From the NCBI RefSeq assembly GCF_034314085.1, contig NZ_JAVIWI010000001.1:992001-1056000 (forward strand): a stretch of DNA of 64,000 nucleotides. Reading direction: 5' to 3'. A model generated the notes under the pieces. That model had not been told where the DNA came from. It saw only the letters and a program-made list of their open reading frames with translations, and ran no database searches. The translations under genes and the position numbers were made by a program. This document shows, piece by piece, positions 5,449 through 57,184 of the stretch. How positions within the stretch are numbered: the stretch's first letter is position 1; every line of letters begins with the position of its first letter. Source of the DNA: Undibacterium sp. 5I1. GTDB lineage: Bacteria; Pseudomonadota; Gammaproteobacteria; Burkholderiales; Burkholderiaceae_D.

Positions 5449-5764
5449 GGAAATTCCTCTTGATAAAAATTTTAGGGTCTTAGTAAGCAAACATATTGGG
5501 AATAAATGATTCAGAAACAGGATGCTGCGTGCTTTAGATCAACAGCGATGATGAACGACGATGAGGAACACCACCGGAGCACCAAAACTTAGGTCGTTTA
5601 ATTGCTGAAATTGGTGCATTTTTAATATACTCCCCATCATTTTTATAAAATATGCTCTATTGTCCAATGATTATATGGACGCTTAAAATTACTCCTACTC
5701 AGTATATATTTTGGATATGCTTAGAGAATCATAGAAATCAGCATGCGCTAGACAATTAGAGCGC
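5449..5764. other. Intergenic gap inside the sulfur cluster
   Basis: About 316 bases separate the permease and binding-protein genes, although all other genes of the cluster are tightly packed. It contains one copy of the dispersed palindromic element (5625-5710). The binding-protein gene may therefore have its own promoter, or the element may have been inserted into the operon. No ORF is apparent. Confidence 0.5.
5625..5710 (+). repeat. Dispersed palindromic element, copy 1
   Basis: It begins ATATACTCCCC, has the inner hairpin TGTCCA...TGGACGC, and ends with a degenerate ACTCAGTATATATTTT instead of the usual GGGAGTATAT. It lies between the MetI-type permease and the MetQ-type binding-protein gene. 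It is about 86 bp and clearly alignable with the copy at 27149. Confidence 0.7.
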
Positions 5765-6427
5765 TCAGCGGTGATCAATACGTCGCGCAACTGTATTGCC
5801 GACAAACTGAATTATTTGTACCAGTACCACCAAAATAGCGATGGTAAAAACCATCACGTCGGTTTGAAAACGGTAGTAGCCATAACGTATCGCCAGATCG
5901 CCGATACCGCCGCCACCCACCACACCCGCGACGGCGGAATAAGACAAAAAGCTGATCGCTAATACGGTAAATCCCAGTACCAGGCCAGACCTGGATTCCA
6001 CCAGTAAAACGCGCCATATAATTTGTAATTCTGATGCGCCAATGGCGTGGGCTGCCTCGATCACACCGCGCGGAATCTCACGCAAGCTTTGTTCTACCAA
6101 CCGGGCAAAGTAAGGAATGGCAGCAATCGACAATGGCACTGCCGCCGCAGTTGGGCCAATTGAAGAGCCTACAATCGAACGGGTAAACGGCACCAACGCG
6201 ACCAGCAAAATAATGAAGGGAAAAGACCGCACCGTACTCACAAGCCAATCCAGTACCGTAAACACCGGACGGTTGGCTAGCGATTGCCCCGGTCCAACCA
6301 GGTATAACAAAATACCCAATGGGCCACCAATTAGGACTGCCGCAGTCAAACCAATGCCGAGCATCAAAAACGTTTGAGCGATAGAGACCCAGAGCTCAGG
6401 CAAGATATTCAGAATATTCTCAGACAT
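5765..6427 (-). CDS. MetI-type ABC transporter permease
   Basis: 220 residues with five or six hydrophobic segments and the BPD permease loop (EAAHAIGASELQIIWRVLLVESRSG). The length and sequence match the MetI family, which imports D/L-methionine or related sulfur compounds through the inner membrane. Its start overlaps the end of the ATPase gene by 8 bases, indicating translational coupling. The conserved GGGGIGDLAIRYGYYRF segment near the C-terminus is typical of MetI. Linkage to monooxygenase genes suggests an organosulfur substrate other than, or in addition to, methionine. Confidence 0.88.
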   Translation of the reverse strand: MSENILNILPELWVSIAQTFLMLGIGLTAAVLIGGPLGILLYLVGPGQSLANRPVFTVLDWLVSTVRSFPFIILLVALVPFTRSIVGSSIGPTAAAVPLSIAAIPYFARLVEQSLREIPRGVIEAAHAIGASELQIIWRVLLVESRSGLVLGFTVLAISFLSYSAVAGVVGGGGIGDLAIRYGYYRFQTDVMVFTIAILVVLVQIIQFVGNTVARRIDHR

Positions 6428-7376
6428 GCGCTAGCTCACGTGACTGCTGTTCTTGCAATTGAGATGGGGCATCTTGATTGGATTGAGGCAGCGTTTGCTC
6501 TTCACTGTGCTGCAGTTCCAAAATGCTTTGTGCAAATCTGGCGTAATGCACTAGCTCTTTTCCTAGCAAGGTTTTGCGTGGAGTGATGTAATCTGAGATG
6601 GAAATTTGTTCCGCGATGACACCGTTTTCTATGACTGCGACGTGCTCGCACAACTCATGGACGACCGATAGTTCATGCGTGACGATGACAATTGTGACGC
6701 CTAGCCGGGCGTTGATATCGCGCAGCGTCGCCAATAATGCACGCGTGGTTTCGGCATCTAAGGCAGAACTGGGCTCATCACACAACAAGACTGCCGGGTG
6801 GCTAGCTAGCGCGCGGGCAATCGCCACACGCTGTTTTTGGCCACCCGACAATTGCGATGGGTAGCTATCGGCTTTATCGACCAGATCGACGAGGGCTAAG
6901 CATTCACGCACGCGTTCTGCTATTTGAAGACGATTGAATCCGCCATGGATTTTTAAGGGGAGGGCAATGTTCTGAAATACACTGGCATTCTGCAATAAAT
7001 TAAATTGCTGGAAGATCATACCGATGGACTGACGCGCTTTGCGTAATGCCGATTTATCCAGTGCGGTCAGATCAAGCTGATTCACGGTGACAGTTCCGCT
7101 ATCGGGTTGTTCTAATAAATTGATCAGGCGCAGTAAAGTTGATTTGCCTGCGCCACTTTTTCCGATCAGACCAAAGATATCGCCGGATTGTATTTGCAGC
7201 GAGACGTCTTTGACAGCGTCAAAATGTTTACCAGCTGGCAGTGCGAACGATTTTGAGATTTGATCAAGCTGAATCACGACGTTTTTTTTCGTCGCTTGCT
7301 TACCGTTTGCCGTGGTTGCAATCTGGGCGAATTTGCCAGCATCAAATGGTGGAAACAATTGAGACAATTGAGACAT
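6420..7376 (-). CDS. MetN-type ABC transporter ATP-binding protein lacking the NIL domain
   Basis: 318 residues from the ATG at 7376, preceded by AGGA 8 bases upstream; a longer frame to 7502 overlaps the preceding gene and is rejected. Walker A is GKSGAGKST (72-80), the signature is LSGGQ (176-180), and Walker B ends in CDEPSSALD (D200, E201). The domain order resembles MetN. About 30 extra residues precede the ATPase core, and the C-terminus ends in a Gln/Glu-rich tail without the roughly 90-residue NIL regulatory domain of canonical MetN. It would therefore lack methionine trans-inhibition. It lies 14 bases after the SfnB-like gene and overlaps the permease gene. Confidence 0.88.
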   Translation of the reverse strand: MSQLSQLFPPFDAGKFAQIATTANGKQATKKNVVIQLDQISKSFALPAGKHFDAVKDVSLQIQSGDIFGLIGKSGAGKSTLLRLINLLEQPDSGTVTVNQLDLTALDKSALRKARQSIGMIFQQFNLLQNASVFQNIALPLKIHGGFNRLQIAERVRECLALVDLVDKADSYPSQLSGGQKQRVAIARALASHPAVLLCDEPSSALDAETTRALLATLRDINARLGVTIVIVTHELSVVHELCEHVAVIENGVIAEQISISDYITPRKTLLGKELVHYARFAQSILELQHSEEQTLPQSNQDAPSQLQEQQSRELAHV

Positions 7377-7390
7377 GAGGCGCGTCCTGA

Positions 7391-8683
7391 TCACGAGTAA
7401 GGTGTGGGCTCTGGCAAACTGCCACTGAGAACATAGCGACCCAAATCCCGCAGTTTGTAGTCGATTGGGTCGTGTAGCGTATGTACCCGGACATTCCGCC
7501 AAAAGCGGTCATAGCCATAACGTGCGCTGGTCGAGCGTGCGCCAGTGATGTCAAACATTTGATTTGATACTTCTAATCCGGCTTGATGCGACAGGCATTT
7601 TGCTTCTGCCACACTGATGGCGAGTTCGCCACGATCCTGTGCCGTGATTGTTTCGCCTTTACTCCAGACCCGCTGTAGATGCTCTGCAGCTTGATCTGCC
7701 AAAGCAATCGCTGGACGAAGTAATAACCAAAGGCTGCCGAAACGATGTTGGACATAAGGATCATCAACCGTGCTTGGTACGCCAGAAGCAAACCAGGGAC
7801 GTGCTTCGTCGCGACTATATCGTCTGGCTTCATCAAATGCGCCTAAGCCAATTCCCAAGTACAAATTAGCCATGATTAATTGTGCGACCTGGGAACGCAC
7901 GCTGGCTTGCGCCGTTGCCACGGCACCGGGGGCAAGCAAAATATCTTCTTTGTGCAAAATCACATCGGTAAAAACGACATTGCCGCTATCGGTCTGGCGC
8001 TGGCCAAATGCATCCCAGTCAGGATTGATCTGGATGCCACTTCGATTGCTTGGTACCGCGGCAATGAGTGCGCTCTGGCTTGCTTCATGCCATGCCGATA
8101 TTGTCAGCAAATCTGATCCGACTGAGCCGGACGAAAAACTTTTGATACCGTTAATTTTGTATATGCCATCAGCCGCTTCAGCGGTAAGATCATCTGCCAA
8201 TTCATGGGCAATAACGCGTTTGTCCAAGGGATTTAAAGCATTGCCCCAAAACCAGCGGTTGGTGACGGTATTGGTGAGTAAAGTGCGTTGTTGCGTTTTA
8301 TTGCCATAGAGTTGTACGCCTGCCACTTGTAGATGATGAAACGCAAATACATGTGCCAACGCGCTATCAACTTTGGCTAACTCGCGAATGGTCTGATAAA
8401 TCTGCGGCCAGGGAGCACCTAAACCACCGTATTCTGTGGGAACCGATAGAGTGAGTAAGCCACTGTCACAAAGTAATTCTCGCTCTGTCGCTGCATGACC
8501 TCCAACCCGATCACGTGCAACTGCGTTTGCCGCTAGCGCTTTTGCAATTTCTGCTATTACGGCAGATACTTCAAACAGTGTGCTTGCGTGGAGATGGCGT
8601 TGGACATCAACCGGAAAAGCGTTCGATGTTAATGCGGAGTGGAGTGGCAGCGGCATAGCGTTCTTTACAGAGATCAATGTCAA
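7391..8683 (-). CDS. Acyl-CoA dehydrogenase-like flavoenzyme (SfnB/DszC type)
   Basis: 430 residues with the acyl-CoA dehydrogenase fold: an N-terminal helical domain (LLTLSVPTEYGGLGAPW), a middle sheet domain (WFWGNALNPLDKR, YKINGIKSFSSGS), and a C-terminal helical domain ending ARSTSARYGYDRFWRNVRVHTLHDPI. The last segment is typical of DszC and SfnB sulfur-acquisition monooxygenases rather than true dehydrogenases. The likely role is FMNH2-dependent oxidation of an organosulfur compound. It is the first gene of the minus-strand cluster, so the promoter should lie in the 277 bases shared with kup. The start is a TTG at 8683 with GGAAT upstream; the ATG at 8656 is an alternative. Confidence 0.82.
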   Translation of the reverse strand: MTLISVKNAMPLPLHSALTSNAFPVDVQRHLHASTLFEVSAVIAEIAKALAANAVARDRVGGHAATERELLCDSGLLTLSVPTEYGGLGAPWPQIYQTIRELAKVDSALAHVFAFHHLQVAGVQLYGNKTQQRTLLTNTVTNRWFWGNALNPLDKRVIAHELADDLTAEAADGIYKINGIKSFSSGSVGSDLLTISAWHEASQSALIAAVPSNRSGIQINPDWDAFGQRQTDSGNVVFTDVILHKEDILLAPGAVATAQASVRSQVAQLIMANLYLGIGLGAFDEARRYSRDEARPWFASGVPSTVDDPYVQHRFGSLWLLLRPAIALADQAAEHLQRVWSKGETITAQDRGELAISVAEAKCLSHQAGLEVSNQMFDITGARSTSARYGYDRFWRNVRVHTLHDPIDYKLRDLGRYVLSGSLPEPTPYS

Positions 8684-8960
8684 AATTATTCCATTGTGTC
8701 CGCCGCAGTAAAACGAATCATTTCAACTTTAGTTATGCGAATTCTGGATTCGGCCTTCCGTTTCATTCTGTTGTCAAGAATTTCCCTGAGTCAAAAACAG
8801 GTGCTCCGTTTATTGTTTTTATTGACAGTTCAAGAGAAACTTTGCAGAGTGTGGGCTGTTGTTGCATGACTCCCACAATTGGTCGATTCCCGAATTGATG
8901 CTTGAATTTCGTTACGGAATCACCTATTGTGCAACGCACCAAGAATAACAAGGTACACAA

Positions 8961-10850
8961 TTGGCTAATTTAACAACTGATCATCACGCAAAAAGCAGTA
9001 TGGCGGGACTAACGCTGGCAGCAGTCGGCATTGTCTACGGCGATATTGGCACTAGTCCTCTTTACACGATGAAAGAGGTATTTTCAAAAGAACATGGTCT
9101 TCCTCTGAACGAGGCCAACATTTTTGGCGTGGTATCGCTGATCTTGTGGGGATTGTTCATTATCGTCGCGATTAAATATGTCACCCTGATTTTGCGGGCA
9201 GATAACCGGGGCGAAGGCGGGATTATGGCGCTGACGGCATTGGCGTTGGAATCAGTTGGCAAAGCCTCCAGATGGCATTTTTTACTCTTTGTGATTGGTT
9301 TGTTTGGCGCTGCGCTGTTTTATGGCGATGGTGTAATTACTCCCGCTATCTCTGTGCTATCAGCGATTGAGGGGCTAGAGGTTGCTACCCCCGCATTTTC
9401 TCCTTATGTGGTCCCCATTACTTTGGTGGTGTTGATCGCTCTGTATGCGGTGCAAAGCAAAGGATCTGCGGGTATTGGTAAATGGTTTGGCCCGATTATG
9501 GTGATCTGGTTTGTCGCCTTGGCTGTGATGGGCGTAATTAATATCATCAAAATGCCAATGATTCTGGGTGCGTTAAGCCCGTTGCATGCAGTACGTTTTT
9601 TAGTGTCTAACGGGTGGCTAGCATTTTTAGCACTAGGCGCAGTAGTGCTGGCATTTACCGGTGCTGAGGCTTTGTATGCAGATATGGGACACTTTGGCCG
9701 CAAGCCAATCAGAATGGCGTGGTTTATGGTGGTGTTTCCTGCGTTGGGTCTAAATTATTTAGGGCAGGGCGCATTATTGATCGTCACGCCGGACGCTGTT
9801 AGCAATCCGTTTTATCAGCAATTGGGTGCCTGGAGTGTTTATCCTTTAGTCGCTTTGTCTGCTGTTGCTACTGTGATCGCATCACAGGCAACTATTTCTG
9901 GCACTTTCTCCATGACTAAGCAGGCGATTTCTTTAGGTTTTATGCCAAGAATGAAAATCGTCCATACGTCATCGCAAGAGATCGGTCAAATTTACATCCC
10001 TGCGGTCAACTGGTTGCAGTTATTGGTGGTGGTGGCAGCGGTAGTCGGTTTTGGTAATTCTTCTAATCTGGCGTCTGCATACGGCATTGCTGTTACTGGC
10101 ACGATGTTGGTGACGTCGATCTTAACTTTCTTCGTGATCCGTTACGGCTGGAAATACAATCCGATTCTTTGCTTTGTTGCGACCGGATTTTTTACCACGA
10201 TTGATCTCGCATTTTTCTCGGCCAATGGCTTGAAATTCTTCCATGGCGGCTGGTTCCCGGTGGTATTGGGCATCATCATGTTTACCGTAATGGTGACCTG
10301 GAAGCGTGGCCGTGAGCTGGTATTTGATAATCTGAAAAAGCATGCGATTCCGCTGGAAGCGTTTTTATCCTCTTTGTTTGTATCACCGCCTGTACGGGTC
10401 GCTGGGACAGCCATCTTCTTGCGCGGCGAGTCCGACGGTGTGCCACATGCGCTGTTGCACAACTTGTCGCACAATAAAATTCTGCACGAACGGGTTATAT
10501 TTTTAACTTTGCATAACGAGGATATTCCTTGGGTGCCGGCCTCTGACAGAGTCAAAGTGACTGATCTGGGACATGATTGCTACCAGATTGATGTGTTTTA
10601 TGGCTTTAAAAATGAACCAGATATTCCCAAAGCGCTGGATTTGTGTGAGCCATTTGGGCTGACATTTGAGCGGATGGAAACTTCTTACTTCATCGCGCGC
10701 CAGACAATTATTTCAAGACCGAATAGCGGTATGGCCTTGTGGCGCGAATGGTTGTTTGTCATCATGTCTAAAAATTCACGCGATGCAGCAGATTATTATC
10801 AAGTGCCAACTAATCGCGTAATTGAAGTCGGTTCTCAGGTTGAAATTTAA
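8961..10850 (+). CDS. kup: Low-affinity potassium transporter Kup
   Basis: 629 residues, close to the 622 of the E. coli protein. The N-terminal signature GIVYGDIGTSPLYTMKEVF is followed by about twelve membrane segments (residues 15-430), with GDGVITPAISVLSAIEGLE and FTGAEALYADMGHFG in conserved positions, then a cytoplasmic C-terminal domain of about 170 residues. It is a proton-coupled K+ symporter of the inner membrane. The start is a TTG at 8961 preceded by AAGG 7 bases upstream; the next ATG (9000) would truncate the conserved N-terminus little and cannot be excluded. It is monocistronic and divergent from the sulfur cluster. Confidence 0.95.
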   Translation: MANLTTDHHAKSSMAGLTLAAVGIVYGDIGTSPLYTMKEVFSKEHGLPLNEANIFGVVSLILWGLFIIVAIKYVTLILRADNRGEGGIMALTALALESVGKASRWHFLLFVIGLFGAALFYGDGVITPAISVLSAIEGLEVATPAFSPYVVPITLVVLIALYAVQSKGSAGIGKWFGPIMVIWFVALAVMGVINIIKMPMILGALSPLHAVRFLVSNGWLAFLALGAVVLAFTGAEALYADMGHFGRKPIRMAWFMVVFPALGLNYLGQGALLIVTPDAVSNPFYQQLGAWSVYPLVALSAVATVIASQATISGTFSMTKQAISLGFMPRMKIVHTSSQEIGQIYIPAVNWLQLLVVVAAVVGFGNSSNLASAYGIAVTGTMLVTSILTFFVIRYGWKYNPILCFVATGFFTTIDLAFFSANGLKFFHGGWFPVVLGIIMFTVMVTWKRGRELVFDNLKKHAIPLEAFLSSLFVSPPVRVAGTAIFLRGESDGVPHALLHNLSHNKILHERVIFLTLHNEDIPWVPASDRVKVTDLGHDCYQIDVFYGFKNEPDIPKALDLCEPFGLTFERMETSYFIARQTIISRPNSGMALWREWLFVIMSKNSRDAADYYQVPTNRVIEVGSQVEI

Positions 10851-10942
10851 GCTACTTTAGTTTGCTGAGAGCCTCAAAAACGCTTGAAAAATAGCGTGGG
10901 GGCTTATCAAGCGAATTTGGCTATGCTATACTCTCGTTTTTC

Positions 10943-11019
10943 GCGGCTGTAGCTCAGCTGGATAGAGTACTTGGCTACGAACCAAGGGGTCGTGGGTTCG
11001 ATTCCTGCCAGCCGCACCA
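10943..11019 (+). tRNA. tRNA-Arg (ACG), copy 1
   Basis: A 77-base cloverleaf. The acceptor GCGGCTG pairs with CAGCCGC (11009-11015) and is followed by an encoded CCA end. The anticodon loop is CTACGAA within stem CTTGG/CCAAG, giving anticodon ACG. The T arm contains GGTTCGATTCC. It is followed immediately by a strong terminator and is identical to the copy at 16387. Confidence 0.97.
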
Positions 11020-11025
11020 GATTCA

Positions 11026-11057
11026 AGGGACTAGATGCAAATCTAGTCCCTTTTTTC
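11026..11057 (+). terminator. Rho-independent terminator after tRNA-Arg copy 1
   Basis: The arms AAGGGACTAGAT and ATCTAGTCCCTT form a 12-bp stem with a GCA-type loop, followed by a run of T. Confidence 0.92.
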
Positions 11058-11198
11058 TTTGGTGGATTGGGTTCATGCGGTTTTTGGGGGATATTCTTCT
11101 TAGAACTCTAATTTGCTTCCTCGTTATCAGTTTTGATCAGTTGATATTCTATAAATCTCATCTCTAGACGATCAATCAAACATAGCTCCATTTAAAAT

Positions 11199-11217
11199 AT
11201 AAATGCGAATCATTATC
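11199..11217 (+). promoter_or_regulatory. Fur box upstream of the DUF2325 operon
   Basis: The 19-mer ending AATCATTATC matches 14 of 19 positions of the Fur consensus by my count, with a perfect right half. It lies about 47 bases before the ATG at 11264. This predicts iron-dependent repression of the downstream three-gene operon, which itself ends in a Fur family gene. Confidence 0.65.
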
Positions 11218-11263
11218 ATTTATTGATACAATAACTTCTCATTTACCCGTGAGGAGTTATTTC

Positions 11264-11533
11264 ATGTCACACAAAACCAACTATGTAGAATGTCGCCAGA
11301 CCTTGGTCGCTGCCAGCGATGTAGGTCATGTGACGACTTGTCCCGAGTGCGGACATGTGCATTTGAATTTGCGCGCGGTGACGGTCAGATTTGAATTAGA
11401 TGCTTTTCGTGAATTGACCGAGATGCTGAGTTTTGCCCAAAAACGTTTAGATGTTGATCCCGCTTTACACGATTCTGAATCGTCTGAATCTCGGGTGCTT
11501 GCCACTGACGGTGGCAACAACATCAGACATTAA
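11264..11533 (+). CDS. Small protein with a CPECGH zinc-ribbon-like motif
   Basis: 89 residues from the ATG at 11264 (GAGGAG 7 bases upstream); an in-frame upstream ATG at 11249 lacks a ribosome site. The cysteines are C9 (YVECRQ) and the pair CPECGH at about 27-32, followed by His residues, so half of a zinc- or iron-binding site is visible. The rest is helical and acidic, without membrane segments. I do not recognise the family. It is the first gene after a Fur box and 14 bases before the DUF2325 gene, which suggests a cytoplasmic role in the iron response or metal handling. Confidence 0.7.
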   Translation: MSHKTNYVECRQTLVAASDVGHVTTCPECGHVHLNLRAVTVRFELDAFRELTEMLSFAQKRLDVDPALHDSESSESRVLATDGGNNIRH

Positions 11534-11547
11534 CCGGAGGGCAGCTC

Positions 11548-13457: not shown

Positions 13458-14014
13458 GCCGCTATGCTTAAGTCACCATCATTCCAGGCTTAGCTTGTTT
13501 AAGGACTGAGTTAGTGTAATCGGGTGCTCAATCAGAGCGCGGCCTTTACCCATTTCATTACCCGGCTCAATTATCGAATTATCCGCACGAATTAAATTGC
13601 ATATGTATATACTCATTACAGTATATTTTTATGTCCAATAAATCATTGGACATAAAGGGTATATTTGGCATATACCCCCTAATTTTTACTTATTTCAACT
13701 CGAGTGGATAAGCTATTCAGTCGATGTCAGCCATCAAAGAGAGCAATAAAACGACCACCGCAGAGAAAGCGAATGATTTGGCGGAGATGTACTAAATATG
13801 CAACATAGCTACAATATTGACGAGTTTGCAAGGTTTTTGTTGCTCTGAGTCTCTTTTACTGTGTGCGCCTATGGCATAATTAAATGGCAAGCTTATTGTT
13901 AGGCAATACAAACGATGCGCCTGACAAAAGACCATAAAAAAGCTTGATGTCTAAGTAGTCGCCCCATCCAAACAAAAGCGAACTTCATTTCACCTCCACT
14001 TAAGGTTTTAATCC
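13458..14014. other. Intergenic region between the Fur operon and the DUF898 operon
   Basis: About 560 bases. It holds one copy of the dispersed palindromic element (13600-13690). The remainder includes AT-rich DNA and possible promoter sequence before 14015. No convincing rho-independent terminator follows the Fur family gene. Confidence 0.5.
13600..13690 (-). repeat. Dispersed palindromic element, copy 2 (divergent)
   Basis: Read on the minus strand it has AAATATACCC, the inner hairpin, AAATATACT and GAGTATATA in the family order. Its hairpin is the strongest of the family: TATGTCCAAT and ATTGGACATA around a 5-base loop (13630-13654). The left end has AGGGGGTATAT in place of ATACTCCCC. Confidence 0.55.
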
Positions 14015-16211: not shown

Positions 16212-16386
16212 ATCATTGAATAATTAGCATAGTATTTTATTCATTTGGAAATGTAGTAAGTCCTGCTTTAAATTAGTTTTTGATACTTAATTTTGGTGAT
16301 GTTGGCCATTATTAATGCAATGTAGAGGATTTTTGCCACCGCTTAGCTTTGTATTTTTCAATTGCTATGCTATGCTGTCGATCTTC

Positions 16387-16463
16387 GCGGCTGTAGCTCA
16401 GCTGGATAGAGTACTTGGCTACGAACCAAGGGGTCGTGGGTTCGATTCCTGCCAGCCGCACCA
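16387..16463 (+). tRNA. tRNA-Arg (ACG), copy 2
   Basis: Identical over all 77 bases to the gene at 10943, with anticodon ACG and an encoded CCA end. The duplication also includes the following terminator and part of the promoter (GCTATGCTAT upstream of both copies). Confidence 0.97.
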
Positions 16464-16468
16464 GATTC

Positions 16469-16501
16469 AAGGGACTAGATGCAAATCTAGTCCCTTTTTT
16501 C
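16469..16501 (+). terminator. Rho-independent terminator after tRNA-Arg copy 2
   Basis: The same 12-bp stem (AAGGGACTAGAT/ATCTAGTCCCTT) and T run as after copy 1. Confidence 0.92.
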
Positions 16502-16648
16502 TTTTGTCCTAAGGATTTTGTGACTCATTTGTTCACTCAATGCTTGAATACCGTATTGCCTGGGCCTGTCCATATCAGTTCCGCGATTTATCCATTTAAG
16601 GCATGCAAGCAATTTAAATCCCAACACGTTTAAACTAAAAAGCCGAGC

Positions 16649-21835: not shown

Positions 21836-21865
21836 ATCTCGTTATTTTAAATTGTAGTGAATTAT

Positions 21866-21949
21866 TATACTGGTGACGAGTATGGTTAAGTTGTCCATGG
21901 ATTCATTGGTTAATAAGGCATTTTTAGTAAAAATAATGGGGAGTATATT
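21866..21949 (-). repeat. Dispersed palindromic element, copy 3
   Basis: On the minus strand it begins AAATATACTCCCCATTATTT, continues AAATGCCTTATT, and has CCATGGACAACTTAA at the inner right arm. The inner hairpin is weaker because the left GTCCA is changed to AACCA. It lies between rimI and the UDG gene. Confidence 0.68.
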
Positions 21950-22048
21950 TAATTTGGGGGAAGGATTTCGTAATATCCCAAACGCCCCTGCTATTTTTAT
22001 CATAAATTAGACTCGTTTCAACTTTATTCAATCTTATCTAATTTGCTA

Positions 22049-27070: not shown

Positions 27071-27148
27071 TGTAAAAGATCATGGAATATCGATCATTCT
27101 CATAACCAGTGCGCCATGCTTGGCATGTCTGTGAGAATATCGATTTCC

Positions 27149-27236
27149 ATATACTCCCCCAATTTTTTATGAAATATGCCTTATCGTCCAAGGATTCTAT
27201 GGACAACTTAAATATACTTGTTGGGAGTATATTTTA
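27149..27236 (+). repeat. Dispersed palindromic element, copy 4 (best type copy)
   Basis: 88 bp with the clearest terminal inverted repeats: ATATACTCCC at the left and GGGAGTATAT at the right. The inner arms are TCGTCCA and TATGGACAA within AAATATGCCTTAT...CTTAAATATACT. It lies between the convergent radA and hpnE genes. Confidence 0.8.
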
Positions 27237-27257
27237 TAGTGCTGTCTGTATATCGGC

Positions 27258-28640
27258 TTAAGACTTCGCTTGCAAACACAACTTTGCCGCCGCAACGCCA
27301 CTGCGTACCGCGGCCTCCAGCGTCGCCGGATAATCGCCCTTGGTGTAATCGCCAGCGATAAAACAGTTGCTCAGACCAAGATTATTATCCGGTCTGTCTA
27401 ATGCGGGTGTGCAAGAAAACGTGGCGCGTTTTTCTGAAATAATTTGATGCCATAGTGGGTTTGCCAGCTGCGGCAGTTGGAATACCTGTGCCAGTTGTTG
27501 AGCAATAGCGGTCGCTAAGGCCGAATTGCCCAGGGCAATCGCCTGTTCAGACGCGCTGACAACCACCGCTAATAAACCGGCTTGCGAGGGATGTAACTGG
27601 CCTCGATCAAAAACAAACTGTCCCCAGTGCTGGCGCTCTGGTTGATCCCGCAGCGCGAAAAAAGTCCGTGAAAGTTGCAGCTTGGTGTCGTATTGAAGAT
27701 AACAAGTGGTGATAGCCTCATAGCCAAAACCGGAAAGCTGGCGGGTAGTTTCTTCCCTCAGATTGCCCCCCAAAAGACGCGTCGCTTGCTCAGGATTTGT
27801 CGCTACGATCAGCGCATCAAACTCTTGCTGATGGCTAGTATCCGCACTTGTAAAATCTAATTGCCAGCCGTGCTGTGCGGTGGGCGTGATGTGCTTCACG
27901 GTGGTACCTAAGTGCACATTGCCACCCGCCGCTTCAATCCATTGTCTGGCTTGTTCAGGGAAGAGGGCGGACAAGTCTAGTTTGGACAGCAGCATGTCGG
28001 ATGCCGCTCGTTTTGCTCCCAGACTATCGCGTAAAACATTTAAAAATACTTGTGCCGAGGCACGTTCTGGTGGGGTATTCAAGGCGGCAATGCACAAGGG
28101 ATTCCACATTAGCTGACATAGCCGGTCAGTCTGATCAAAGCGCTCCAGCAGCTCGGTCACGCTGCAATCTTGATTCAGCTGCCATCCCATCCAGCGCGCT
28201 GTCGTTGAGAATCTGGCCAGCGCGAGTTTGTCTTGCTTATCCAGTCCTTTAGCACGCAACAGCGCCAGAAGCAAATGGAAAGGCGCGGGCAGTTTGGGCG
28301 CGATAAATTGCATGCCATCGGTGTAGTTTGGATAAACCATCTGCAAGGGCAAGCGCAAAAGCGCCGCGTCCAGATCAATCCCGACTTTGCGCATGATCGC
28401 CAGGCTGGCGCTATAAGCACCTAGCAAAATATGCTGGCCGTTATCCAGCGCATGTCCATGCAAATCCACCCGACGCGCCCGACCACCCAAGGTGCGTGCC
28501 GCTTCAAACAAGCTCACTATCGCGCCTTGGCTGGTAAGCTCGGTAGCCGCTGCGCAGCCTGCCCAGCCAGCACCGATTACGGCGACGTGTCGAGCAATTC
28601 GTAGATTTTGTTTGCGATTGATCTGATCGAGCTTAGCCAC
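27258..28640 (-). CDS. hpnE: Hydroxysqualene dehydroxylase HpnE
   Basis: 460 residues. It has an N-terminal FAD-binding Rossmann motif (VAVIGAGWAGCAAATELTSQG), the amine-oxidase/phytoene-desaturase fold, and a C-terminal cofactor motif CFIAGDYTKGDYPATLEAAVRSG. HpnE reduces hydroxysqualene to squalene, the third step of the HpnCDE route. The start is a GTG at 28640 overlapping the hpnD stop by 8 bases, so translation is coupled. The cyclase (shc) is not in the window, so whether squalene goes to hopanoids cannot be told here. Confidence 0.93.
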   Translation of the reverse strand: MAKLDQINRKQNLRIARHVAVIGAGWAGCAAATELTSQGAIVSLFEAARTLGGRARRVDLHGHALDNGQHILLGAYSASLAIMRKVGIDLDAALLRLPLQMVYPNYTDGMQFIAPKLPAPFHLLLALLRAKGLDKQDKLALARFSTTARWMGWQLNQDCSVTELLERFDQTDRLCQLMWNPLCIAALNTPPERASAQVFLNVLRDSLGAKRAASDMLLSKLDLSALFPEQARQWIEAAGGNVHLGTTVKHITPTAQHGWQLDFTSADTSHQQEFDALIVATNPEQATRLLGGNLREETTRQLSGFGYEAITTCYLQYDTKLQLSRTFFALRDQPERQHWGQFVFDRGQLHPSQAGLLAVVVSASEQAIALGNSALATAIAQQLAQVFQLPQLANPLWHQIISEKRATFSCTPALDRPDNNLGLSNCFIAGDYTKGDYPATLEAAVRSGVAAAKLCLQAKS

Positions 28641-44020: not shown

Positions 44021-44162
44021 ATTCATAATTGATTTTCTGGGTTATCTAATCTTTAAATCATTGTCTAAATAGTAAATTAAATTGACCGATAATTTAACTT
44101 TTGTCGAGACGATGAAAGTAGGCTCGAAACATAAAATTTTATGCATTTAATCGGAGTGATTG

Positions 44163-44246
44163 CATACTATGGGTGAGTATATTTTAATTGTCTATGCACC
44201 AATTGAGTAAAATCATGTTTTTCAAAAAGATTGTGGGGAGTATATT
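44163..44246 (-). repeat. Dispersed palindromic element, copy 5
   Basis: On the minus strand it begins ATATACTCCCCACAATCTTT, has CATAGACAATTAAAATATACT as the right inner arm, and ends ACTCACCCATAGTAT. The inner hairpin is eroded, but the ends and spacing fit the family. It lies between the convergent lon and lexA. Confidence 0.6.
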
Positions 44247-44317
44247 GATTGAGTTGGGACGTGACAGATGGAATTTTTTTAATTTCCTGATATTGCCAAT
44301 ACCTAGTAATACATAAC

Positions 44318-46250: not shown

Positions 46251-46277
46251 TTGACGACAAGGTACTAGGAGAAAAAT

Positions 46278-46730: not shown

Positions 46731-46749
46731 GTTTTAGTTGCATAGCATT

Positions 46750-48382: not shown

Positions 48383-48472
48383 TCGTACGACTATTTAGCA
48401 GTATCCAGACTAATCAGATTCTTCTTTTTGATCTGGAGCGATTTCAGTATTTTTACTTCTAGCGAGAACAAT

Positions 48473-49099: not shown

Positions 49100-49240
49100 C
49101 GATGAAACTGGCAAGATATTGCTCTGCTAGTTTAGATGCTACAAATATGTGTATCGGCAGTATCTAAGCATTTAACTTGCCTGTCGTTTTATTAGTATTA
49201 ACTCTCAGCTCCGAGAGTGCTTAAAAGAGAAGTGATTCCC

Positions 49241-50251
49241 ATGCAAACCTTCCATATGAGCCTATACCTCATCATATTTCTGGTGGTGCTAGCTCTGTTA
49301 TTTGATTTTATGAATGGCTTTCATGATGCAGCGAATGCTATTGCTACCGTTGTTTCTACCGGCGTATTAAAGCCTCAGCAAGCAGTCGCGATGGCGGCAT
49401 TTTTTAATGTGCTCGCCATTGTAGTTTTTCCATTGACTGTTGCAACCACGATCGGTAAAGGTACGATCGATCCCAGTGTAGTTGATCATTATGTGATTTT
49501 TGGCGCATTAGTCGGGGCGATTTTTTGGAATTTTGTGACCTGGTATTTTGGTATTCCATCGTCCTCATCGCATGCATTAATCGGTGGTATGGTTGGTGCG
49601 GCGGTAGCTAAAGCGGGCACTGGTGCATTAATTTCTGCTGGCTTGATCAAGACGATCGTGTTTATCGTTGTGTCTCCTCTGTTGGGGTTTTTTCTCGGTT
49701 CTTTAATGATGTTATTGGTGTCGTGGTTGTTCGTTAAATCGACGCCGATGAAGGTTGATAAATGGTTTCGTCGTTTGCAGCTTTTATCCGCTTCCATGTT
49801 TAGCCTGGGGCATGGCGGTAACGACGCTCAAAAAACCATGGGTATCATCTGGATGCTGCTGATCTCTGCCGGTTATTCTGCACAAGCAGATACTTCGCCA
49901 CCGCTCTGGGTGATTATCTGTTGTTATACCGCGATCGGTATGGGGACTTTGTTTGGCGGATGGCGCATTGTCAAAACTATGGGACAAAAAATTACAAAGT
50001 TAAAACCTGTAGGCGGTTTTTGTGCAGAGACAGCAGGCGCTGCGACCTTATTTTTTGCCACCGCCATGGGCATTCCTGTCTCCACGACACACACTGTTAC
50101 TGGTGCGATTGTGGGCGTGGGTTCTGCCCAAAAGATGTCTGCAGTGCGTTGGGGTGTTGCTAGTAATATTGTCTGGGCCTGGATTTTGACTATACCTGCC
50201 TCTGCCTTTGTCGCCGCGATTGCATGGTGGGTCGGACGACACATATTATAG
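49241..50251 (+). CDS. pit: Inorganic phosphate transporter, Pit family
   Basis: 336 residues from the ATG at 49241 (GAGAAG upstream). It is a membrane protein with about ten helices and the duplicated PiT signature: DFMNGFHDAANAIATVVSTG in the first half and GHGGNDAQKTMGI in the second. It is a low-affinity, proton- or metal-coupled phosphate importer. It follows the DUF47 gene, an arrangement conserved widely. The stop codon abuts a dispersed palindromic element and then a terminator. Confidence 0.95.
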   Translation: MQTFHMSLYLIIFLVVLALLFDFMNGFHDAANAIATVVSTGVLKPQQAVAMAAFFNVLAIVVFPLTVATTIGKGTIDPSVVDHYVIFGALVGAIFWNFVTWYFGIPSSSSHALIGGMVGAAVAKAGTGALISAGLIKTIVFIVVSPLLGFFLGSLMMLLVSWLFVKSTPMKVDKWFRRLQLLSASMFSLGHGGNDAQKTMGIIWMLLISAGYSAQADTSPPLWVIICCYTAIGMGTLFGGWRIVKTMGQKITKLKPVGGFCAETAGAATLFFATAMGIPVSTTHTVTGAIVGVGSAQKMSAVRWGVASNIVWAWILTIPASAFVAAIAWWVGRHIL

Positions 50252-50333
50252 ATACTCCCCCTGTTTTTTGGTAAATATGCCTTATCGTCCATATTTCTTC
50301 TGGACGATTAAATATACACAGGGGTAGTATATT
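50251..50333 (+). repeat. Dispersed palindromic element, copy 6
   Basis: It begins GATACTCCCCC at the last base of the pit stop codon, has AAATATGCCTTA, and contains a perfect 7-bp inner stem TCGTCCA/TGGACGA. It ends with GGGGTAGTATATT. The sequence GCCTTATCGTCCA is shared exactly with the copy at 27149. Confidence 0.8.
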
Positions 50334-50371
50334 AAAAAGCCTGACAGGCATCACGTTTATCAGGCTTTTTT
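50334..50371. terminator. Rho-independent terminator after pit
   Basis: AAAAAGCCTGA and TCAGGCTTTTT form the stem, followed by T. The symmetric A/T flanks allow use by the convergent response-regulator gene as well. Confidence 0.88.
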
Positions 50372-50411
50372 CAACTGCGTACCGTTTGTTGATCTGATCG
50401 CCGCTATTCGC

Positions 50412-51179: not shown

Positions 51180-51195
51180 AGTTCGTCAATTCCGT

Positions 51196-52533
51196 TTAGT
51201 TGGCTAACTCATAAGGGATTTCTATAGTAACGCAAACGCCTGTCGGTTGATTAGGTGTAATGATCATTTGCCCTTTTTCTTTGTAAATAAGTTTCAGACG
51301 CTCACGAATATTTTGCAAACCTAAGCCCGTGCCGTTACTCGGCATTGCACCAAAGCCCAATCCGTTATCTGATACCGATACCCGCAATTTGTTGTGCGCT
51401 ACTTCTGCATGGAAGCGAATCGTGCCACCTTCGGCTTTGACCTCTAACCCATGCTTAATCGCATTCTCAACCAGCGACTGCAACATCATCGGCGGGAAAG
51501 AGGCGCTGCGCAATCCTTCTGGCATGATGAAGTCAACCTCTAATCGTTCTTCCATCCGCATTTTTAATAGATCCAGATAAGACCTGACCATATCCGCCTC
51601 GCGTCCCAAATTGGTTGTTGCGGCGTTTTCGCGCATTTGTGGCAAGACAGCGCGCAAGTAAGAGATCAAGCTGCGTTGCATCGCTGCTGCGCGAGGCGGG
51701 TCGGTTTCAATCAAATATTCTACCGATGCCAGCGTGTTAAATAAGAAGTGCGGTTCGACTTGCGCTTGCATCATTTGCATCTGTGCCTCGCTAACCTGAC
51801 GCAGCAATGATTCACGCTCAGCAGAGGCATTGGCTTGTTTGGCCTTTTCTTCCGCTCGGACTTTCCCACCCATTAACGCCTTCATACCAAGCAGGCCAAA
51901 AATCAATAACATCACAAAGTTGATAAACCATTTGGATGATTTTTTCTGATAACTCTTTACCTCTTCATCCGCAGCGTCGGCAACGGCATCTTCAATATCA
52001 TTGCTGATTTCCTGTGCGACCTCTGGCGGTAGCTTGATGTGAATATCATCTTGCCCATTTTTACTGATGATTGGTGCTGCAGGTGCAGCAGGTGCTGCGG
52101 CTGAGGCTTCAGAGGCGGCACTTTCTGCTGGTGCGACCGGCGCAGCAGGTTCTGTTGGTGTGCTGCTATTGCCGTTTAAAACGCGAATGCCATTCTCATC
52201 GATCTCAATTTGTTTGCCATCACCATCGGTTTTGTTTTTGCGGATATGGATACCAGTCCCATCAATCTCAATATTGGTATCGCCGTCGCTAATTGCTTTG
52301 GATTTACTCGCTTTTTTCGCTGCTTTTTTCTTAGTGACGACAACACTCTCTTCAGAACTAAAAAGATTATCTTGAAGGATCGCACCCGCGATCATTGTGA
52401 CGATGGCGAATAAGAAAAACTTCCACCAGGACAATTGCGTTACCCAAGCGGCAGTTTTGTCAAAAGCCTTGCTGAGCCAGCGTAAAAAACTAGTAGCAAA
52501 CTCTTTACTTGTTTGAAGTGTATTCGGGTTCAT
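51196..52533 (-). CDS. LytS-type sensor histidine kinase with unusual loop
   Basis: 445 residues. The first membrane helix is at about 36-52 and the second at 202-221, followed by a HisKA-like PF06580 domain with the phosphorylated His262 (VEPHFLFNTL), the N-box VENAIKHGL and a G-box GLGLQNIRERL. The 150-residue loop between the helices carries a Lys-rich start, two copies of an IEIDGTGIHI / IEIDENGIRV motif (88-97 and 109-118), an Ala/Pro-rich low-complexity stretch (125-155) and an acidic helix. I do not recognise this loop as a known sensor domain. It is paired with the LytTR regulator downstream. Confidence 0.9.
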   Translation of the reverse strand: MNPNTLQTSKEFATSFLRWLSKAFDKTAAWVTQLSWWKFFLFAIVTMIAGAILQDNLFSSEESVVVTKKKAAKKASKSKAISDGDTNIEIDGTGIHIRKNKTDGDGKQIEIDENGIRVLNGNSSTPTEPAAPVAPAESAASEASAAAPAAPAAPIISKNGQDDIHIKLPPEVAQEISNDIEDAVADAADEEVKSYQKKSSKWFINFVMLLIFGLLGMKALMGGKVRAEEKAKQANASAERESLLRQVSEAQMQMMQAQVEPHFLFNTLASVEYLIETDPPRAAAMQRSLISYLRAVLPQMRENAATTNLGREADMVRSYLDLLKMRMEERLEVDFIMPEGLRSASFPPMMLQSLVENAIKHGLEVKAEGGTIRFHAEVAHNKLRVSVSDNGLGFGAMPSNGTGLGLQNIRERLKLIYKEKGQMIITPNQPTGVCVTIEIPYELAN

Positions 52534-52603
52534 GATGAATTTCTCTCTAAGTTATCTTATTTCTACTAACTGATATTGGCTGATTAGCTTGGTAGCAAAG
52601 ATA

Positions 52604-52756
52604 ATGTTTTATATGGCATGTTGTGACTTTAGAGAAATGCTGGAGCGATCGCTACAGGCTTGCGACAGTCTGCAAATAAACTGGGACAGAATCAGTAAAA
52701 GTGAGCTTAGTGTGCAGGAGCAACAGTATGTTTTTCAAGATATAGCGAAAAAATGA
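52604..52756 (+). CDS. Possible 50-residue hypothetical protein
   Basis: An ORF in the divergent region upstream of the kinase gene. It has three cysteines and a plausible amphipathic, Gln/Glu-rich second half (SVQEQQYVFQDIAKK). There is no signal peptide and no family is recognised. The Shine-Dalgarno is poor. It is listed because it is the only sizeable frame in the gap and its composition is protein-like. Confidence 0.3.
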   Translation: MFYMACCDFREMLERSLQACDSLQINWDRISKSELSVQEQQYVFQDIAKK

Positions 52757-52892
52757 TGTCTTACCTGCTATGAAGATTGTTGATGAAGCTCATTGCTGTT
52801 CGTGATCATAAGAGTGATGTAAGTTTTTATTTAGATAATAAAAGTAATGAGCAGCATTTTAAAATGATCATGATGGTCGGTAAAAATCAATG

Positions 52893-52916
52893 AAGTAATT
52901 AAATAAGTAATTAAAT
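52893..52916 (+). repeat. 12-bp perfect tandem duplication
   Basis: AAGTAATTAAAT occurs twice in direct succession, followed by another AAG. Confidence 0.7.
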
Positions 52917-53005
52917 AAGAAAGTGGCACATATCAGTGATCTGTATGATCACCTGACTGCGCCACTATTGAAATAATTTGATATCAGCAGACCTAGTAAA
53001 CGGAA

Positions 53006-55255
53006 CTAAGTATTTTTTACTAATTGCTTTTGATTTTCTAACCAAGGATGTAAATCCTGCTTGGTCATAGGTTTTGCATAGTAATAACCCTGCGCCAAAT
53101 GACAGCCAAACGACATTAAGGTTTGTGCTTGCATTTCGCTTTCTACACCCTCGGCAATGATAGAAAGCTCCAGACTTTGTCCTAATTGCACGACCATCTT
53201 GGCGATACTGCCGTCACCAGAATTTTCTTGTATTTCGTTGACGAAGGCGCGATCGATCTTCAGTTTGTCTACATCAAGTTTTTGTAAGTGACTTAGAGAT
53301 GAGAATCCCGTGCCGAAATCGTCAATCGATACTTTGATCCCTAACTGTTTGATTTGATACAGCGTTTTGATCAGCAGTTCAGGGTCTTTCATCGCCATGG
53401 ATTCGGTGATTTCTAGTTCTATTCTCTCTGGCGGCGCTTTGGTATCAGCCAATGCATTGTGCAAGGACTGCATAAACAGCGGGTGAGAAAACTGTGCTTG
53501 AGATACGTTAATCGCCATTTGGAAATCTTCGTAACCTAGACTGCGCAGATGGACGAGTTCGTGGCACGCCGTACGCAAAACCCATTCACCAATATCAACG
53601 ATCAAGCCAGAATATTCGGCAATCGGAATAAATTGATCGGGAGGGATAAATTTACCTTCATCGGTCTTCCAGCGTAACAGAGCTTCCGCGCCAACTACCC
53701 GACCATTACGCATATCGACTTGCGGTTGGAATACCAAGAATAGTTTTTCGCTCTCAAACGCAGAGCGTAAAGCATGCATCAGACGAACACGTTCGCGGAT
53801 TTCTACTCCCATATCTCTGGTGAAATAGACAAACCCACCGCGTTGATGTGATTTGGCACGTTTTAATGCAATATTAGTATCTTTTAGTGCCTCTGATCCG
53901 TCGCCATCGTAATCGCCGAGGGCGACTAAACCAATTGTTGCTGACAACTGTACATCTTGGCGGTCAACTTGAACAGGAGGGTGGAAGAGCGCCAAAATCG
54001 CATCAGGGCAGACCATTTCTTCATCACCTAGTAGCGCAAAAGTATCGCTGCCTACGCGTGCTAGCTGACAATCGTTACCAAAATGTTTTGTCAGCCGTTG
54101 CGCGACAGCGCATAGCAACATGTCGCCAAACTGGTGACCAAGCGCATCATTGGTTTCTGCAAAATGGTCAATGTCAATTAAGGACAATGCACTTTGTTTT
54201 TTGAGTGGCGATTGCAAGGTTTCATTCAACGTTTGCAATAACTTTAAGCGATTGGCTAAGCCAGTCAGAGGATCGTAAAACGCATAGCTGTGCAAGCGCG
54301 AGGTCAGCATGACATTATCTAGGCCAACGGAGACGTTGCTGCAGAACACTTCCAGCAGCCGTTTATCCATGTCATTAAGATCAAGACCTTTATTCAGGTA
54401 GACAGTCAGATCCCGATCCGCGACATTACTAAAATAAAGTGTGGTCGATTCAGGTTCATACAGATTGCTACGTCCTTGCATAGAACGCTGCACAATGGCA
54501 TGCACACTTTCTTGGGCGACGTCACCTAAGGGGCGATCAATCCATTCGTTAAAAGAAAAGGTTGTTGCAATAACGAGTAATTCATTTTCAGGATTTCCAC
54601 CCTGTTGAGCGCAAACAAAGCCCTCAGGATGTCCACCTAGCAAACCAGATATTTGTGTTAAAACCCCAAGCGCGAAATTTTGTAAGCCCTGCAACGCCAT
54701 TAACTCCGTACTGGCATTAATGATGAGTTCTAATCCTCGGCGGCTGGAACTGATGGCACAGATTTGTTCATAGGAACGAATTGCTGATGTAACGGCAGTG
54801 TATAGCTTGGTGCGTGTCAGCTCTGATTTGGTTTTGTAATCATTGATGTCGTAGTCGCGGATCGCATCAATCTCAGGTGCGTAACCAGGTTGTCCGGTGC
54901 GTAAGATAATCCGCACGTCGGATAAGCCTAAGGTTTTTCTGATATGACTAACGAGTTGCAGGCCGGCGTCTTCTTGTTCCATTACGACATCAAGCAGAAT
55001 AATCGCTATATCAGTTTCGCTCTGGAGAATGTCACGTGCCTCTGCAGCCGAGTATGCATGTAAGAAACTAAGCGGCCGGTGCTGAATCTCCAGGCTGCCG
55101 AGCGCAAATGTCGTCGCTGAATGGACATCAGGATCATCATCGATGATCATAATGCGCCATGTTGGGTGAAGCTTGCTCACTGCCGAAGCATCACTAGCCT
55201 CTGGTTCATCCAGAAAAACCAGATCATCTTCGGAAGAGTGGATCATTGCATTCAT
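53006..55255 (-). CDS. REC-DUF3369-GGDEF-EAL cyclic-di-GMP phosphodiesterase
   Basis: 749 residues. The receiver domain (35-160) has the phospho-acceptor D89 (ILLDVVME). DUF3369 (about 170-315) is a GAF-like sensor. The GGDEF domain (320-480) has GSDTF (402-406) in place of GGDEF and so is probably an inactive cyclase. The EAL domain (495-745) is complete: EALLRW (524-529), NVS, EITES, DDFGTG, LKID and EGVE. The protein should degrade c-di-GMP in response to phosphorylation. No kinase is adjacent except the LytS-type one, which has its own partner. It is a lone gene. Confidence 0.92.
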   Translation of the reverse strand: MNAMIHSSEDDLVFLDEPEASDASAVSKLHPTWRIMIIDDDPDVHSATTFALGSLEIQHRPLSFLHAYSAAEARDILQSETDIAIILLDVVMEQEDAGLQLVSHIRKTLGLSDVRIILRTGQPGYAPEIDAIRDYDINDYKTKSELTRTKLYTAVTSAIRSYEQICAISSSRRGLELIINASTELMALQGLQNFALGVLTQISGLLGGHPEGFVCAQQGGNPENELLVIATTFSFNEWIDRPLGDVAQESVHAIVQRSMQGRSNLYEPESTTLYFSNVADRDLTVYLNKGLDLNDMDKRLLEVFCSNVSVGLDNVMLTSRLHSYAFYDPLTGLANRLKLLQTLNETLQSPLKKQSALSLIDIDHFAETNDALGHQFGDMLLCAVAQRLTKHFGNDCQLARVGSDTFALLGDEEMVCPDAILALFHPPVQVDRQDVQLSATIGLVALGDYDGDGSEALKDTNIALKRAKSHQRGGFVYFTRDMGVEIRERVRLMHALRSAFESEKLFLVFQPQVDMRNGRVVGAEALLRWKTDEGKFIPPDQFIPIAEYSGLIVDIGEWVLRTACHELVHLRSLGYEDFQMAINVSQAQFSHPLFMQSLHNALADTKAPPERIELEITESMAMKDPELLIKTLYQIKQLGIKVSIDDFGTGFSSLSHLQKLDVDKLKIDRAFVNEIQENSGDGSIAKMVVQLGQSLELSIIAEGVESEMQAQTLMSFGCHLAQGYYYAKPMTKQDLHPWLENQKQLVKNT

Positions 55256-55553
55256 CTGAGGTGCGACTCCAAGAAAGGATTTATATATTGCTACGTGTAT
55301 TACTTTCTTTGATTGTAACTTTACGTGAACTATCGCATTAAATGATCAAACAGCCAAGTCGGATTTGTTGTATTGAGTCAGTATAAAACAAGACGTACAA
55401 ATATTTCTCGACTTATGTGGACAAAATTCATAAAACCAAATTTTGTGTCGAGATTTACGTACTTTTCCTCGCGAATGCCTTACCCGAAAGCGACTCTTAC
55501 GCCGTCATCGCTGTTAAAATCAAGGCAATTTCGAAACAAATCCTGCAAATATT

Positions 55554-56633
55554 ATGTCTGGTAATACATTTGGAACACTGTTCACTGTGACGACTTTTGG
55601 TGAGTCACATGGCCCTGCAATCGGTTGTGTAATTGATGGTTGCCCTCCGGGGCTTGAGTTGTCAGAGCTGGATATACAGCCTGAATTAGATCGTCGCAAA
55701 CCGGGCACATCGCGCCATGTCACGCAACGGCAGGAGCCAGATACGGTAGAAATTTTGTCTGGTGTGTATCAAGGTAAAACGACAGGTACACCGATTGGTC
55801 TATTGATCCGCAACCAAGACCAGCGCAGCAAGGATTACGGCAACATTACCGAGACTTTTCGCCCCGGACACGCCGACTTTACCTACTGGAATAAATACGG
55901 CATCCGCGATCCACGCGGCGGCGGTCGTTCTTCTGCACGCTTGACTGCTCCCGTGGTCGGTGCCGCAGCTATTGCCAAAAAGTGGCTTTTTCAACAGTAT
56001 GGTACGACCTTTAAAGGTGGAATGAGTCAATTGGGCGATATCGTGATCCCGTTTGAATCGTGGGCGCATGTGTCTGATAACCCTTTCTTTGCGCCCAACA
56101 ATAATCCGGCTTTAATTACACAGCTAGAGGATTACATGGACGCCTTACGTAAAGACGGTGATTCGATCGGTGCGCGGATTGATGTGGTAGCGAGCGGCGT
56201 CCCGGTTGGTTTGGGAGAGCCAATTTACGATAAATTGGACGCAGAAATCGCTTACGCTATGATGGGGATTAATGCAGTTAAGGGCGTAGAGATTGGTGCT
56301 GGTTTTAAGTGCGTTGCCCAGCGTGGTTCCGAGCATGGCGACGAACTGACGCCTGAGGGGTTTGTCGGTAATAACGCTGGTGGTGTTTTAGGGGGGATTT
56401 CAACCGGGCAAGATATTACGGTTTCGATTGCGATTAAGCCCACATCGTCTATTCGTACACCACGTCGTTCGATTGATAAGGACGGCAACCCAGTGATGGT
56501 GGAAACTTTTGGCCGGCATGATCCCTGTGTTGGTATCCGTGCCACACCGATTGCTGAGGCGATGCTGGCGCTGGTATTGATGGATCATGCTTTAAGGCAT
56601 CGTGCACAATGCGCTGATGTTAGGCATTCATAA
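55554..56633 (+). CDS. aroC: Chorismate synthase
   Basis: 359 residues opening [27 protein letters not shown], with the family signatures [30 protein letters not shown] and [16 protein letters not shown]. It converts 5-enolpyruvylshikimate-3-phosphate to chorismate using reduced FMN as a catalytic cofactor. It is a single gene; the next gene, leuC, is 550 bases away. Confidence 0.97.
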
Positions 56634-57184
56634 ATATTGCTATGATGTGATTTGATACGACTCTACAGTTTTATGGGGAGTATAGCCACTAACGATGGTT
56701 ATTGACCAGATAATCTATGGACAATTAATTTTACTGGGTAGGAGTATTGAAAATATTCTGTAGATGTTTTGTGGTGATGCAGTTAGATTTTCACGAATCA
56801 GCTCAACAGAATAAAAAATGGAAATTTCTTTATTTCTCTCCGATTATCCGGTGAAAGTTTGGCTTTAATTTAATATTTTCTATTTTTCTATGGAAAAACG
56901 TATGCCTTAAATTGATGCGCAGTATGGTTCTGCGTTGCACAATTGTGGCATAATCTGAAGCAAATCTTGCATAAGAGTCTCTCCGATTTCACCTGAGTCG
57001 ACTGCAAATCACCTGAGTAGTGCATATTGCACCGGTTTCCTGTCAATTGTTGTGTCGTTGATCTGGCCAGACCGCACGAAACTTCGTATTTCCCTGCTCC
57101 TTTGATTTGCGCTAATCCCAAAAGGATTATCCGGCTTCTTACGCGCGTTGCAGGCTCACGTATCTCATATCAGGTTTCAACATC
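56634..57184. other. Intergenic region before the leucine operon
   Basis: About 550 bases with a copy of the dispersed palindromic element near the left end. It should hold the leuC promoter. I looked for a Leu-rich attenuator peptide and found none. Confidence 0.5.
56671..56749 (+). repeat. Dispersed palindromic element, copy 7 (left end inverted)
   Basis: TTATGGGGAGTATA at the left, then TTGACCAGATAATCTATGGACAATTAATTTTAC with the inner right arm conserved, and GGTAGGAGTATTG at the right. The left end reads GGGGAGTAT instead of ATACTCCCC, so both ends have the same orientation here. Confidence 0.5.

Follow-up and report, generated by a model that had tools for sequence, protein, structure and literature searches.

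What kind of repeat are the seven nested palindromes that lie between the genes of a 64,000-nucleotide stretch of Undibacterium sp. 5I1 (contig NZ_JAVIWI010000001.1, positions 992,001 to 1,056,000; hereafter the window), and what keeps them in place? The copies, which begin near window positions 5625, 13600, 21866, 27149, 44163, 50251 and 56671, had been described in a first-pass annotation as one dispersed family that might be either a miniature inverted-repeat transposable element (MITE) targeting TA dinucleotides or a regulatory or mRNA 3'-end element. Overall, this interpretation is partly supported by our analyses. Hundreds of copies are dispersed in the intergenic regions of certain betaproteobacteria. 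The family behaves like a REPIN or a MITE but could be assigned to neither class, since a defining feature of each was looked for and not found. What distinguishes it is that the arms are kept at each site whereas the centre is kept only family-wide, and that some addresses are inherited with content of the local type; the content at inherited places appears to be refreshed, and the ends are protected at each place. As a single repeat family traceable through a genus, it would allow the parts kept by the host to be separated from those required for copying, and both are testable.

Structure and covariation of the element

The element has a design of approximately 80 bases, in which arm 1 (ATACTCCCC) is separated by some four unpaired bases from a T-run, followed by an A-run and then by an inner stem of roughly seven base pairs; next come arm 2 (AAATATAC), a short unpaired stretch and arm 3 (GGGGAGTAT). 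The ends and the GTCCA...TGGAC inner stem described previously were confirmed, as was the loop, which measures 9 bases. Measured from ATAC to GTAT, 40 of 41 copies from the genome itself (two of 43 were not parsed) and 53 of the 60 from other genomes are 79 or 80 bases long, the end nearest 80 being chosen when two were possible. The conserved ends read, by eye, ATACTCCC...GAGTAT; the terminal inverted repeats are TATAC...GTATA, with 87.4% of the cells of the outer helix paired, and a weaker A/T-rich skirt extends about 8 bases outward from each end. A typed consensus folded at -21 kcal/mol (shuffles: -10.9, sd 2.5) and the typed opposite-strand version at -26 kcal/mol (shuffles: -11.6, sd 2.8). 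Arm 3 can pair with arm 1, giving a nested hairpin, or locally with arm 2; taken together with the inner stem, these folds had 83.0% and 79.3% of cells paired, respectively.

The two nested levels of complementarity are supported by an alignment of 72 rows (69 distinct) from 16 genomes, from which one sequence aligned in reverse (L077) had been removed. All seven inner-stem pairs change on both sides, as illustrated by columns 46-60 (CG 33, GC 32), and the covariation score of the stem (0.194; shuffled 0.115) was reached by none of 500 shuffles and exceeded that of slid partners (at most 0.078). Complementarity is thus kept through compensatory changes among relatives, a test that the first-pass annotation had set for itself. 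Within the genome of strain 5I1 alone, the inner stem is nearly invariant and no covariation was seen. The Rfam covariance models matched only tRNAs in the window, with no match at E<=1 in 27090-27290, and membership of an Rfam family is not supported.

Distribution of the family

The genome (G000) consists of two replicons, the chromosome C1 (4.71 Mb) and C2 (171 kb). The pattern TATACTCCCN{40,65}TGGAC had 255 exact matches (133 forward and 122 reverse), a lower bound since this strict two-box pattern misses some copies in the window, and the same pattern read backward had none on either strand. BLAST identified at least 40 places, and a covariance model (R1) built from 43 genomic copies, including 5625, 21866, 27149 and 50251, identified at least 150, the weakest among the matches listed having an E value of 4.6e-9. 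The family is therefore not limited to the window, and its proposed genome-wide occurrence between genes in both orientations is borne out. The 150 listed R1 places were all on C1, and the gaps between them appear random (coefficient of variation 1.03); judged on these places, neither strand bias nor regular chromosomal spacing was supported. The replicon C2, which accounts for 3.5% of the genome, held none of the 150 listed copies.

R1 detected the family in 16 of 98 genomes searched, including G000 itself. These were 15 of the 43 genomes of the genus and one genome of another genus (G054), leaving 28 of the 43 congeners without it. A model built from several species (R2) detected the family in 13 of 195 genomes drawn from the taxonomic family: six genomes of the genus with at least 21 copies each, G004 with one copy, four genomes of a second genus (g13) and two of a third (g69) with one weak match apiece. 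R2 had no match in 25 loci taken from an 80-locus contig scan of relatives such as Herminiimonas, Undibacterium pigrum and Herbaspirillum, a scan outside which the nearest records possibly lie. Phages, plasmids and viral contigs gave no match to a query consisting of one copy or one strict pattern, and carriage on such replicons was not supported by this single-copy or strict-pattern probing. Among the papers listed in literature searches, none names the family in its title or in the opening of its abstract.

Conservation at single sites

The sister genome G035 made it possible to compare copies site by site. The joined flanks of 27 sites were searched against it; 22 sites could be judged and all 22 were filled, although for three of these the evidence is a single flank or an unusual spacing together with an R1 place, one of the three being confirmed later. 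Sites 13600, 21866 and 27149 of the window were also filled in G035. In the same joined-flank search, none of the four sites in G015 could be judged. A further G035 copy (L198:7626-7719, on G035:C211) lies in a region with few genes, in which G035 and the window differ (about 17.8-20.1 kb).

In more distant congeners, most of the window gaps had no R2 match at E<=1, the threshold used for all gaps described here. This was the case for the lon/lexA gap in G015, G033 and G025, for the separated lon and lexA gene ends in G006 and G011, and for the 21866 and 27149 gaps in G011. At the phosphate-permease/regulator gap, G011 has a copy (34.1 bits), and both G033 and G015 are empty. The only match at the aroC/leuC gap was a weak one, in G011 (17.9 bits, E 0.57); the gap had no match in four other genomes, G033, G015, G006 and G025. 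Sites are thus stable between sister genomes and mostly different between distant ones.

Twenty aligned G000/G035 copy pairs, with flanks of 75 bases per side, revealed that the parts of the element do not change alike. The arms differed at 6 of 458 positions and the flanks at 203 of 2982 (Fisher P 1.6e-7; 7-8% divergence within 60 bases of the element). The inner stem differed at 24 of 280 positions, not below the flanks, the T-run at 5 of 119, and the loop with the rest of the interior at 85 of 729, more than the flanks (P 2.7e-5). The G000 copies had been chosen by similarity to one copy, which favours low change in the arms, yet applies equally to the stem. The arms are therefore protected at each site, and the inner stem, paired across species, is yet unprotected at single sites between sisters. 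Nor does the stem count support the idea that a changing trans factor holds the stem at individual sites. New G035 alleles resembled other copies more than expected (0.289 vs 0.208-0.212), also where the G000 copy has the commonest base (0.131 vs 0.105, P 0.003), but both comparisons are confounded by retained ancestral bases.

Probably inherited addresses with local content

Nine sites were common to non-sister genomes among the top-scoring copies fetched, with flank identities of 69-86%. Judged with family models, they include the prpB/prpC gap, occupied in three species, a site upstream of pyrC, and sites after a relA/spoT-type and after a phosphomannomutase-type gene. At a site beside a gene that resembles, by eye, a MarR regulator, five of six pairs were homologous on one side only. 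Orientation was the same in all 27 pairs, which are not independent. Upstream of pyrC, the distance from the element to GGTA(A/G)AATG was 30 bases in G014 and G011 and 31 in G033, with unrelated intervening bases, and at the permease site the element begins directly after the stop codon in G000 and, by eye, in G011. The interiors do not follow this agreement: the similarity of same-site interiors did not exceed the mean for the two genomes concerned (difference -0.004; n = 25 pairs), copies within one genome were 0.089 more alike than same-site copies of different genomes, and the stems are of each genome's own type. Distant species that share a site thus agree in orientation, but each has an interior typical of its own genome.

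With moderate confidence, we interpret the family as an old, vertically inherited and slowly copied REPIN-like intergenic family, maintained close to gene ends and renewed from sources specific to each species. Its members would be non-autonomous structured repeats of the REPIN/MITE class, with a fixed design of about 80 bases, that spread rarely from species-specific source copies in which the inner hairpin is required. Single-stranded DNA would be the probable route of this spread, because the element leaves no target duplication: short direct repeats (2-9 bases) flanking it showed no excess over shuffled pairs in 41 copies from G000 and 60 from related genomes. Inherited copies would also be overwritten in place, by conversion between copies or by re-insertion, and overwriting is favoured over repeat insertion by the agreement in orientation and the conserved spacing. 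The arms may be kept because the host uses or binds hairpins near gene ends and between operon genes.

Several observations weigh against this interpretation. Where G000 and G035 differ at paired positions of the stem (18 changes), pairing is preserved in nine cases and lost in nine. Two weaker shuffle measures of the stem were less decisive than the covariation score (the number of double-change pairs was reached by 50 of 500 shuffles and that of pair types by 23 of 500), and RNAalifold on its own finds no structure in the alignment of several species. The copies from relatives were the top scorers of R1, a model of the strain's own genome, rather than a random sample, and the congener comparisons yielded no cleanly empty site at which the alignment of the two flanks reached the junction. 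The same spots may also have been hit repeatedly, in the same orientation, by insertion. Finally, for the mobilising enzyme there is no more than a candidate, the RAYT considered below.

A further reading, possible if doubtful, is that the family is rewritten in place, a cellular system overwriting existing copies so that the inner hairpins at hundreds of inherited addresses change together within a species. Address and orientation would then stay while the content of the inner hairpin turns over. Such a system might act, for example, through single-stranded element DNA annealing via the invariant arms at replication forks, or through conversion between dispersed copies.

Relationship to the RAYT-like gene

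The genome has ten matches to Y1 transposases, one of which is a RAYT-like gene (Table 1). A stricter reading, which we consider rather unlikely, is that the element is a REPIN proper, the dispersed partner of the genome's own RAYT, moved as single-stranded DNA. Consistent with this, the RAYT-like gene is followed by a family copy at a distance of about 124 bases in both G000 and G035 and of 73 bases in G020; a RAYT match was found in 40 of the 43 genomes of the genus, as expected for the vertically inherited RAYTs described in PMC8049555; and the lack of a target duplication would also fit. However, 27 of the 30 RAYT loci searched had no nearby copy, three had a copy on one side and none on both sides, and 25 of the 28 congeners without the element (by R1) still have a RAYT match. 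The NF047646 score of the gene is also below the cut-off. The steady neighbour of RAYT is instead a distinct 56-base TATGTCCC...GACCC hairpin, present in a single copy in 12 of 15 genomes searched. For these reasons (the loci without a copy, RAYT in element-free genomes and the separate hairpin), RAYT is only a candidate and may be the enzyme that copies the family. The 56-base hairpin was ruled out as a dispersed repeat by its single match per genome in these 12 genomes; in G017, it adjoins the gene for the large subunit of glutamate synthase.

In earlier work, the REPIN/RAYT system is characterised by a rayt gene flanked by two inverted repetitive extragenic palindromes (REPs; PMC2817692) and, reportedly, by a GTAG- or CGTC-type tag at one end (PMC3733652). 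REPINs (PMC3116915, PMC2817692, PMC8049555) resemble the present family in having hundreds of palindromic copies outside genes, inverted ends that pair around a spacer, a single-strand hairpin, species-specific sequence and a RAYT gene in the genome. Unlike REPINs, the element ends in ATACTCCC, with no GTAG/CGTC-type tag visible by eye, its spacer has a covarying stem of its own and a fixed length, and the RAYT is not flanked by two inverted copies.

Placement relative to genes and comparison with other repeats

A simple frame caller was used to assess the placement of 98 copies, drawn from 12 genomes; four of them lay inside called frames and one at an edge. The 93 remaining copies were distributed among convergent (32), co-directional (53) and divergent (8) gaps. 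The reference intergenic bases (96 kb from the window and the loci L198 and L199, some of it orthologous to the window) were 24% convergent, 51% co-directional and 25% divergent. The nearest gene end was at a median distance of 46 bases (85 copies), and the copies in co-directional gaps ran along the genes in 32 cases and against them in 21. These data bear on the regulatory or mRNA 3'-end role suggested earlier, which the family may have, and by analogy with REP and BOX elements the copies may affect mRNA.

In its strongest form, this suggestion would make the copies immobile host regulatory sites, with arms recognised by a protein or an RNA-processing element, spread long ago and kept by selection. 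The conservation of the arms in place and the placement near gene ends and in the prpB/prpC gap of three species would agree with it, as would the single copy detected in G004, which lies between SIS-domain and solute-binding-protein genes at a site common to G013 and G015. We nevertheless regard this as unlikely: distant congeners mostly lack the element in the same gaps, 28 of the 43 genomes of the genus are element-free by R1, there is no orientation preference with respect to genes, and the genome-specific interiors at shared sites are left unexplained. The TA-targeting MITE of an IS630/Tc1-mariner type transposon is highly improbable and largely refuted: the terminal inverted repeats speak for it, but the outermost T is variable (the adjoining A is invariant), direct repeats are not in excess, and G000 has no DDE_3 (IS630-type) transposase match, other transposase families not having been searched. 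The ends of IS605-type elements in the genome are unrelated, and these elements were rejected as relatives.

The BOX, RUP and Correia MITE-type repeats, as described in PMC3049150, are likewise AT-rich, structured and intergenic, with terminal inverted repeats, and transcribed copies are conceivable for them as here. The family differs from these repeats in that no target duplication was found, nor any related transposase among the families searched, and in that compensatory changes between species maintain its inner stem.

ERIC and the REP/BIME elements of Escherichia coli are intergenic palindromes able to act in mRNA. The present family differs from them in sequence and length, and was set apart from them by description rather than by sequence comparison. 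Both are named in PMC3049150.

Copies in the window and additional observations

The claim of one shared design at all seven places holds in that a single family accounts for all of them, but the copies are not uniformly full-length: four are good full-length copies, 44163 is degenerate, and 13600 and 56671 have an altered 5' half (Table 1). R1, the alignment of which (A3) did not include the latter three, scores all seven places, five over the entire model; at 13600 and 56671, the match is confined to the 3' part, the 5' half being another sequence. R2 recovered six of the seven places at E<=1 and missed 56671. The list of open reading frames bears out the intergenic location of every copy, with three (27149, 44163 and 50251) between convergent genes, as had been noted, and the other four between co-directional ones. 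In copy 50251, ATAC begins at 50252, immediately after the stop codon TAG at 50249-50251.

Table 1. Location of the family copies in the window and of RAYT-associated features on the chromosome
Feature	Location	Strand	Score	Context
Full-length copy	window 5620..5713	+	R1 90.1 bits	Between co-directional genes
Variant copy: 3' family part, 5' half swapped for a different hairpin-forming sequence	window 13601..13690	-	R1 34.7 bits (13601-13666); R2 29.2 bits (13607-13690)	Between co-directional genes
Full-length copy	window 21859..21953	-	R1 87.2 bits	Co-directional rimI-like / uracil-DNA-glycosylase-like genes
Full-length copy	window 27144..27238	+	R1 109.4 bits (top R1 score in the genome)	Between convergent genes
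Degenerate copy	window 44156..44250	-	R1 52.4 bits	Between convergent lon and lexA
Full-length copy	window 50245..50338	+	R1 83.2 bits	Between convergent genes
Variant copy, altered 5' half	window 56671..56755	+	R1 34.5 bits (56699-56755)	Chorismate synthase / leuC genes
RAYT-like gene, 232 codons from ATG	G000:C1:4129313-4130008		NF047646 60 bits (cut-off 80)	
TATGTCCC...GACCC hairpin	G000:C1:4130390-4130445			Downstream of the RAYT gene; also at the RAYT loci of 11 congeners

Three further features were observed. In the right flank of locus L047 (G000:C1, 126683-128774), about 60 bases starting with GACTGACGCAAAACTGTCCCAGCAAGGCG match many places in G035 and G014 and constitute another dispersed repeat family. 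Beside copy 5625, the frame at window 5011-5490(-) matches the NlpA lipoprotein profile (236 positions) in its first 102 positions only and is a shortened or frameshifted metQ-like gene. Two 144-base stretches of the window (10920-11063 and 16364-16507), 5.4 kb apart and 97% identical, each carry a tRNA-Arg(acg) gene, and both are also found in G035.

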